Part shown: piece after piece, positions 46,328 through 48,280 of the stretch
Numbering within the stretch: the first letter of the stretch is position 1
How the letters are laid out: every line of letters begins with the position of its first letter
From: Hyphomicrobiaceae bacterium
Lineage (GTDB): Bacteria > Pseudomonadota > Alphaproteobacteria > Rhizobiales > Ancalomicrobiaceae
Reading direction: 5' to 3'
Assembly: GCA_016793065.1 (NCBI GenBank)
Contig: JAEULV010000139.1
Coordinates: forward strand, 1 to 64,000
Length of the DNA: 64,000 nt
Notes under the pieces: generated by a model
What the model was told of the DNA's origin: nothing
Databases searched by the model: none
Seen by the model: only the letters and a program-made list of their open reading frames with translations
Made by a program: the position numbers and the translations under genes

Positions 46328-46636
46328 TCAACGAGCCCGGATCACCTTGACCACACCGTCCATCGCGCCCAAACGGCGGGCGCCTTCGACGGTTGCAATG
46401 ACACCGACGGCACCGATCGTCGTTCCATTCGCGATCGATGCGATCTGGTCGCCGAGATCGTTCTGGTGGATATATCCACGCAGCCGCTCGACATTATGCT
46501 CAACCAGATCGATCTGGGATCGCGTTCGCTCATATCGAGACGTACCGGCTCCGCGCCAGTCCTCGAAGAGCACAAGATAGGCGTCCATGCCGTTCGGCAA
46601 TGCACGCAAGCTTGGGTTCGATAACATGCTGGCCAA
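46328..46636 (-). CDS. Stand-alone I9-like small protein, likely protease partner
   Basis: A 102-residue protein without signal peptide. Its pattern, beta (MDAYLVLFEDW), helix (QIDLVEHNVERLRGYI), beta, then helix and final beta (VEGARRLGAMDGVVKVIRA), matches the inhibitor I9 / subtilisin propeptide layout, in which the end strand docks in the protease active site. AAGGAG lies 8 bases before the TTG at 46636, the best-supported start; ATG 46627 is three codons in. It follows the subtilisin gene on the same strand after 152 bases. It may fold, inhibit or guard that protease; that is inference. Base composition is lower in GC than the flanking genes. Confidence 0.7.
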   Translation of the reverse strand: MASMLSNPSLRALPNGMDAYLVLFEDWRGAGTSRYERTRSQIDLVEHNVERLRGYIHQNDLGDQIASIANGTTIGAVGVIATVEGARRLGAMDGVVKVIRAR

Positions 46637-46788
46637 GGTGGAAGCTCCTTGTCGCGACGCAGAACTGTCACCTAAATGGGTTAAATTCAGCTGAATTCCA
46701 CAGTAGCTGGTCGTTTGAACCTTGCCAATTCACATCTTTCGGCAAGACACAGATGCCTGTGTGCCGCAAGACGAACCAGCGGGCCACG

Positions 46789-48123
46789 CTAAACCTTCGG
46801 CCAGTGGCTGAAGCGAGCGATGCGAATGCCCTCTCCGGCATCGATCGCGTTGTCGAGCAGATGACGGCGGACATCGTTCGCCGTTGTGCGCGGATTCGTC
46901 GAACGGAGCATCGCGGCGATGCCAGTCACGTAGGGAGCCGCCATGCTGGTGCCGTTGGAGAGGCGATAGTAGGACTTGCCCCCGCAGTCGCGCTCGATCG
47001 ATGAACTGATGTCGACACCAAAGCCGTAGATGTCACGGCGAGCGGTGCGGGTCGGTTCGCCGGAGAACCCGGCGACGTTGCCGGTCCAGTCAACGGCGCC
47101 GACGGCAAGGACATTGTCGAAGCCTGCGGGATAGCCGATGAATCCGGCACCCCGATTGCCAGCGGCGGCAATGACCAGCGTGTCCTTCGAGTGCATGTCC
47201 TCGATGGCGCGGCCCAGGACAATTCGCCAGTCCTCGATTTCCTCACGCTGCATCAGGTCTTCGTAGAAGCAGAGAGACAGGTTCACGATCGAGGGAACAA
47301 GACGATTACGCGGCTCGACGAAACGCCGAAACAACCAGTCGAGGCCGTAAACTGTGCGCCAGAGGCTGGCGCGCAAGGTCTCGCTCTCAATGACCGAAGC
47401 GACATGCAGATCGACGTCCGGTGCGATACCGACGCTGCGGCCGGCGATGATGCCGCAGACATGTGTGCCGTGACCATCGGTGTCAAAGCCGCGAACCGGC
47501 CGCATGGAGGTCCCGGTTTCGAGCGCCGCGGGCGGGATGTAGCGAAACTCCACCTGTCGCCGCTTGAACTCGCCATGATCGGCATCGATCCCCGTATCAA
47601 GGACGCCGACCAGAACGCCGCGTCCCTTAACGCCCTGGTTCCATGCATCGGGAATTCCGGTTCGTTGCGGCCATTGGGCCCGGCGCCGACGCGGTGAGAT
47701 CGTATCCGAGGCGCTCAGTCCGGCGTCATTGTCTGCCCTGACATCAAGGACGACATCGAACTGATCGTTGGCTGCATCGAGTACACGGTCCACATCACTG
47801 TCACGGGTCAAACGAACCGTGACTGCCCGAACCAGGGACAAAGACTCAAAGAAACCCTGCTTCACCCGCTGTTCGATCTTGTCGGACGAAACGCCAGGTG
47901 CCCGCACCTGTTGCAAGCCGATTGCATTGAGCCTGGTCAAAATCGGCTTGATGCCTTGCTCAAACCGCTGGCTGGCCGCAGCCGCAGCGTTGTCGCCGAA
48001 GGTGGCGACCGCCTTTGCGGAAATTGGCGCCTCGCCGATTCGCATCAAAACGTCGCGCTTTGGCATCAGGATGATTCGCACCCCAGGCGCGCCCTGATTG
48101 ATCCGCTTCTTGATCGTGTCCAT
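46789..48123 (-). CDS. S8 family subtilisin-like serine protease
   Basis: The 444-residue protein has a catalytic subtilisin domain at about 155-435 with D176 (VGVLDTGID), H218 (DTDGHGTHVCG), oxyanion N323 (AAAGN) and S393 (NGTSMAAP), so it should be active. The first 145 residues form a non-catalytic head; part of it (VTVRLTRDSDVDRVLDAAND) could be a built-in propeptide. No signal peptide is seen, suggesting a cytoplasmic protease or non-classical export. Codons and composition are visibly less GC-rich than in neighbours, a sign of horizontal transfer. It pairs with the small I9-like gene downstream and has a GAAC-N4-GTTC palindrome about 70 bases upstream of the start. Confidence 0.9.
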   Translation of the reverse strand: MDTIKKRINQGAPGVRIILMPKRDVLMRIGEAPISAKAVATFGDNAAAAASQRFEQGIKPILTRLNAIGLQQVRAPGVSSDKIEQRVKQGFFESLSLVRAVTVRLTRDSDVDRVLDAANDQFDVVLDVRADNDAGLSASDTISPRRRRAQWPQRTGIPDAWNQGVKGRGVLVGVLDTGIDADHGEFKRRQVEFRYIPPAALETGTSMRPVRGFDTDGHGTHVCGIIAGRSVGIAPDVDLHVASVIESETLRASLWRTVYGLDWLFRRFVEPRNRLVPSIVNLSLCFYEDLMQREEIEDWRIVLGRAIEDMHSKDTLVIAAAGNRGAGFIGYPAGFDNVLAVGAVDWTGNVAGFSGEPTRTARRDIYGFGVDISSSIERDCGGKSYYRLSNGTSMAAPYVTGIAAMLRSTNPRTTANDVRRHLLDNAIDAGEGIRIARFSHWPKV

Positions 48124-48186
48124 GGTGGCGATGAGTATCCGGTTGTGTTTACCGAAAACTATCCTTTAGATATGTCATATTCAATT

Positions 48187-48200
48187 AGAACGTTTGTTCT
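48187..48200. promoter_or_regulatory. GAAC-N4-GTTC palindrome upstream of the protease gene
   Basis: AGAACGTTTGTTCT is symmetrical in its 5-base arms and fits the GAAC-N4-GTTC form bound by LexA in Gram-positive bacteria; alphaproteobacterial LexA normally binds GTTC-N7-GTTC. It lies in an AT-rich stretch 64-77 bases before the subtilisin start codon. The site could serve LexA or an unrelated repressor carried with the module. Confidence 0.45.
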
Positions 48201-48280
48201 TATTTCGCAATCTGTCCGCGACTTGAGATTGATCGGCTTGGGCCGAAACGTTTCAGGTCGATTTCAAGCAACGCCGACCT

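Follow-up and report, generated by a model that had tools for sequence, protein, structure and literature searches.

A probable PopC/PopD-family protease and stand-alone I9-fold partner in a lower-GC block of an alphaproteobacterial contig

The closest described system to the locus presented here is the PopC/PopD pair of Myxococcus xanthus, which has been described as part of fruiting-body formation (PMC6434023, PMC4320627). PopC is a 50.8 kDa protease that has no signal peptide, possesses an N-terminal part without a recognisable domain and is secreted in its full-length form (PMC6434023). The popD gene (MXAN_0207) is located within the popCD operon (PMC4320627), and its product forms a complex with PopC, blocking PopC secretion until PopD is degraded (PMC6434023). 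Upon starvation, PopD is degraded through FtsHD, and PopC then cuts p25 to the C-signal (PMC6434023, PMC4320627).

Other systems share single features with this pair. Stand-alone I9 inhibitors are found in eukaryotes, with Pleurotus POIA1, yeast Pbi2 and the malaria SUB1 propeptide-like inhibitor as examples. The IetAS system consists of an AAA ATPase and an S8 subtilase. Moreover, nuclease–protease pairs are present in AVAST, Lamassu and Hachiman, and the activation of metallo-beta-lactamase (MBL) pro-nucleases by a partner protease has recently been reported for AVAST, Hachiman and canu (PMC12799240).

The pair analysed here lies in a window of 64,000 nucleotides, which is the whole stretch of DNA under study, from a Hyphomicrobiaceae bacterium. 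The most probable reading, with a probability of roughly 0.7, is that it belongs to the PopC/PopD family, having probably arrived by horizontal transfer, and comprises a protease held by a removable inhibitor acting in trans. The window protease belongs to the same S8 clade as its Myxococcus counterpart and likewise combines an N-terminal part with a C-terminal catalytic domain, with no signal peptide evident by eye; its partner is encoded directly downstream on the same strand and belongs to the same profile family. The differences are also clear. The window partner has 102 residues instead of about 138 and is devoid of the long N- and C-terminal extensions, the two genes are separated by 152 bp, and the protease is only about 38% identical over its length. 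In addition, a link to csgA or Oar is not known for the window pair, and neither an Oar-type transporter nor a CsgA-type substrate is among the flanking genes identified at the window locus.

The gene pair and its predicted folds

The features of the locus are as follows.

46789..48123, minus strand: S8 (subtilisin-type) protease of the PopC-like clade, 444 aa, catalytic triad Asp176/His218/Ser393
47746..48084, minus strand: N-terminal domain of the protease (residues ~14-126), predicted from the model to be an I9-like prodomain in cis
46328..46636, minus strand: PopD-like stand-alone I9-fold protein, 102 aa, TTG start
46645..46650, minus strand: Shine–Dalgarno-like AAGGAG, 8 bases before the TTG start, read from the sequence
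48124..48280, no strand assigned: AT-rich region upstream of the protease gene, holding the palindrome AGAAC-AAAC-GTTCT at 48187-48200

On the minus strand, the protease gene (48123-46789) comes first and the small gene (46636-46328) follows, with an intergenic gap that is narrower in most relatives. The sequence-only reading had described a catalytically complete S8 protease followed by a separate 102-residue protein on the same strand, and both open reading frames are present at these positions. Residues 167-429 of the protease match Pfam Peptidase_S8 (5e-35), while Asp176 (DTG), His218 (GHGTH), Asn323 (GN) and Ser393 (GTSMA) are invariant across the protease clade. No signal peptide is visible in MDTIKKRINQGAPGVRIILMPKRD when the sequence is read by eye, which is the basis for calling the protease cytoplasmic-looking.

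The small protein matches none of the Pfam, NCBIfam and PADLOC models. Judged by its sequence features, the small open reading frame is nevertheless a real gene and not a chance one, because its TTG start is preceded by AAGGAG, its product is 38% identical to that of a relative's gene, and a family profile recovers it at E=8e-11. Upstream of the protease, no sigma-70 consensus promoter was found in 48124..48280. The palindrome in this region, ~64 bp upstream of the protease start, resembles a Gram-positive-type LexA box. SOS-type control through this GAAC-N4-GTTC palindrome was considered and rejected, as the motif is absent upstream of the homologues checked and at this organism's recA.

The predicted structure of the partner (pLDDT 86) has the order beta-alpha-beta-beta-alpha-beta and aligns with subtilisin prosegments at Z 6.7-6.8 and rmsd 2.1-2.3. 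The I9-like fold pattern ascribed to the small protein from its sequence is thus backed by this model and hinted at by one sequence match, described below. NusG domains reach a Z of 8, above the prosegments, and since such unrelated proteins share the fold, it does not by itself show an inhibitor. Real prodomains push a product-like tail into the active site of the enzyme. The window partner has only two residues after its last strand, suggesting that such a tail may be missing.

A second domain of this kind is predicted within the protease itself. Its N-terminal domain is modelled with strands (E) and helices (H) at E15-21, H45-67, E90-95, E100-105, H108-118 and E122-126, and when the whole protease model is superposed on unprocessed pro-subtilisin E, the match extends from residue 13 to residue 442 (Z 39.2, 340 residues aligned). 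The domain has no sequence match to Pfam I9. The protease N-terminus is therein predicted to form an I9-like prodomain arrangement, which is an addition to the PopC paper, and by these models the pair apparently has two I9-like domains, the first in cis and the second in trans. Profile comparison detected no homology between the cis domain and the partner (probability 0.3%). A search of the partner and N-domain profiles against the sequences of solved structures found nothing. As PopC leaves the cell at full length, it apparently keeps its cis domain, and by analogy an unremoved cis domain would fit the need for a separate, removable inhibitor.

In its predicted prodomain fold, in being a separate small protein and in its presumed action on a subtilase in trans, the window partner resembles the eukaryotic stand-alone I9 inhibitors. 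It differs from them in being bacterial and co-encoded with its own target protease, and from the solved I9 proteins in having no detectable sequence similarity to them.

Distribution and linkage of the two genes

Among 60 related genomes, the sole full-length relative of the protease is found in a member of the same family (G001), where a 109-aa open reading frame begins 18 bp after the protease gene. The scan of the genome collection used an alignment of these two proteases as the query; the window protease alone gave no match. With the two-protein query, 33 loci scored below E=1e-57, and the match after them came only at 1e-31. In the phylogenetic tree, the clade that includes the M. xanthus member has a support of 97/98. 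Its alphaproteobacterial members include a Rhizobium metagenome-assembled genome (MAG), Methylobacterium indicum and two other alphaproteobacterial MAGs, and elsewhere it includes many Myxococcota, one member of Gemmatimonadota and one of Caldilineaceae (Chloroflexota). The closest relative is the protease of the Rhizobium MAG (67% identity over the catalytic domain). The gene of this relative (L026:6001-7334) is broken across reading frames, which may be an assembly error or real decay.

The M. xanthus genome contains only one member of this S8 clade (L051), with a computed mass of 50,766 Da. This locus is taken to be popC-popD because of the agreement of this mass with the published value, its position as the sole clade member and the popCD gene order.

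A similar small open reading frame lies directly downstream of the protease in all 32 readable clade loci; in the 33rd (L032), the start of the partner is seen before a masked run, and the profile recovers the fragment at 9e-5. In effect, the linkage spans four phyla. By comparison, none of 47 other S8 loci from the same scan has a partner-like neighbour. The expectation that the gene pair would recur in other genomes is therefore borne out. Moreover, at least 3 relatives have overlapping genes, with ATGA or TGATG at the junction, which points to coupled translation.

The window small protein is clearly similar to the partner encoded in the Rhizobium MAG (38% identity over 88 aa, E=9e-21). Its pairwise similarity to distant members and to the Myxococcus PopD set is weak, and the link runs through intermediates; for this reason, the assignment to the partner family rests on a chain of profiles together with gene position. 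A PopD-family profile built without the window protein, with Myxococcus members included, found the window small protein at E=8.4e-11 among 11,555 open reading frames. The next match of the same profile outside the family is the Pfam Inhibitor_I9 region of a classical secreted subtilase (L120), at E 0.001-0.002. The Pfam Inhibitor I9 model itself (PF05922) matches no member of the partner family.

Composition and genomic neighbourhood

The block containing the gene pair had been described as clearly less GC-rich than its surroundings, and measurement agrees with this: its GC content is 60.3%, compared with 67.1% for the whole window, which places it close to the lowest of 622 equally long tiles. 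Likewise, third-position GC is reduced, with 0.73 and 0.67 in the two genes and 0.85-0.92 in neighbouring genes. The pair is rare: within the order, 2 of 397 genomes have it, and the partner profile matched 3 of 398 genomes in a sample of the phylum, the window's own genome included. In the tree, the window protease is joined with that of the Rhizobium MAG (100/100), while G001, from the same family as the window, goes with Aestuariivirgaceae. The sparse distribution, foreign composition and conflicting tree groupings suggest that the window pair was probably acquired horizontally. Comparison with an empty site through the two flanking genes was abandoned, as those genes are not adjacent in relatives within the family. 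Repeats flanking the pair are weak and chance-like.

At the window locus, the flanking genes encode an SMP-30-like lactonase, an alpha/beta hydrolase, a TPR protein, a sigma factor and an ABC1 kinase. Pfam and PADLOC models were applied to four genes flanking the window pair and to two for each of 8 relatives. Among these, PADLOC recognised no defence gene beside the window pair or beside 6 of the 8 other loci, and the scanned neighbours of most other clade members are housekeeping genes. Proximity to defence islands, which the sequence-only reading had suggested checking, did not emerge as a recurrent feature, with one clear defence-like neighbour (L032) and one weak match (L045, where the neighbour is a histidine kinase). 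Viral contigs yielded distant S8 matches and no close relative; plasmid records likewise yielded distant S8 proteases only, with no partner recognised.

The defence-like neighbour is found in a Gemmatimonadota MAG (L032:4498-5646), where the genes for a PopC-like protease and its partner are preceded, at a distance of 40 bp, by an MBL gene resembling LmuA/Avs1a/RTasMBL. From its gene arrangement, this locus is a possible three-gene nuclease–protease–inhibitor operon. The MBL gene immediately upstream of a protease recalls the nuclease–protease pairs of AVAST, Lamassu and Hachiman, and canu. It differs from them in that the protease is of the S8 type and not trypsin-like or a caspase, in the presence of a stand-alone I9-like partner and in that no sensor NTPase is recognised next to the L032 genes; the MBL gene is also absent at the window locus. 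Through this single case, a defence role may stay open for some members. The resemblance of the window pair to IetAS lies in the S8 protease, which gives a weak PADLOC match to IetS (2e-4), while no AAA ATPase gene adjoins the window pair among the flanking genes identified.

A proposed protease-release switch and its alternatives

By analogy, we infer that the window pair works like Myxococcus PopC/PopD. The protease would be made without a signal peptide, and the I9-fold protein encoded downstream would bind it soon after synthesis, as a separable prodomain. By docking on the catalytic domain, the small protein would render the enzyme inactive and keep it from its site of action. A particular condition, which in Myxococcus is starvation together with the stringent response, would act as the trigger: a cellular protease would degrade the small protein, and the freed enzyme could cut a specific substrate, perhaps outside the cell. 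Complex formation, inhibition, regulated PopD degradation and secretion were shown by others, in Myxococcus only. What the present analysis adds is the gene pair itself, its linkage across the four phyla, its homology to popC-popD and its predicted fold; the homology supports inhibition by the window small protein. Several points weigh against this reading: the predicted cis prodomain already on the protease, which makes the added role of a second one obscure, the 152-bp gap, the weak pairwise link to Myxococcus PopD, the non-specific fold and the possible lack of a product-like tail.

An alternative role for the small protein is that of a folding helper in trans, of the intramolecular-chaperone type, and not of a holding inhibitor. 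I9 prodomains commonly do both, assisting folding and inhibiting the enzyme, and the constant position of the partner gene directly after the protease gene, together with the overlapping ends in several relatives, would suit such a role. The predicted cis prodomain would normally perform the folding, however, and PopC secretion is slightly higher in a Myxococcus popD mutant than in the wild type (PMC6434023), which indicates that PopC is made and exported without need of PopD. A role as folding helper is therefore unlikely. More remote still is the notion that the small protein is an unrelated neighbour of an ordinary S8 protease, with a chance ferredoxin-like fold. In its favour, the partner lacks a match in the family libraries and has a widespread fold, but linkage in every readable clade member, its absence from the control loci and the recovery of the small protein by a profile from which it was withheld leave this notion close to refuted.

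The sequence-only reading had proposed that a protease with a removable inhibitor forms a toxin–antitoxin-like or defence switch. In such a module, loss of a labile inhibitor would let the protease harm the cell or activate an effector. The removable I9-like inhibitor is supported by the linkage and by the homology to PopC/PopD, whereas the toxin–antitoxin or defence part finds little backing. A protease with a separate inhibitor is a suitable layout for such a module, the pair is sparse and seemingly mobile, and the MBL gene 40 bp before the L032 protease parallels the AVAST, Lamassu and Hachiman pairs (PMC12799240). On the other hand, the neighbours are mostly metabolic, defence genes are missing beside the window pair and most loci scanned, close viral or plasmid relatives were not recognised, and the best-known relative is a developmental secreted protease. 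An anti-phage or toxin–antitoxin module is thus rather improbable for the window pair, and a PopC/PopD-like release switch remains the preferred reading.

As the window pair is distantly related to PopC/PopD, a controlled-protease switch appears to exist well outside the bacteria in which it was described. Judging from relatives in several phyla beyond Myxococcota, the switch either predates its developmental role or is more mobile than that role. A mechanism also follows from the comparison as a suggestion: PopD would serve as an unattached I9-type prodomain for a protease that already has one in its own chain. A broader and quite tentative idea, which we regard as doubtful, places PopC/PopD as a single branch within a general protease-release switch that is sparsely distributed and spreads horizontally. 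It would have two I9-like modules, of which the fused one is retained and the free one can be degraded. Such a switch would have been reused in myxobacterial developmental signalling and, in at least one Gemmatimonadota operon, to gate an LmuA/Avs1a-like nuclease.

Two minor observations concern partner proteins at other loci. One further record among the 33 clade loci, labelled Comamonas sp. KCTC 72670 (L044), encodes a partner nearly identical to that of Myxococcus loci, and its label may be wrong. In a genome of the same class as the window (G174), a partner-like open reading frame of 119 aa, with no protease beside it in the 3.2-kb locus, is recognised by the profile at E=4.5e-7 (L123:1429-1788).
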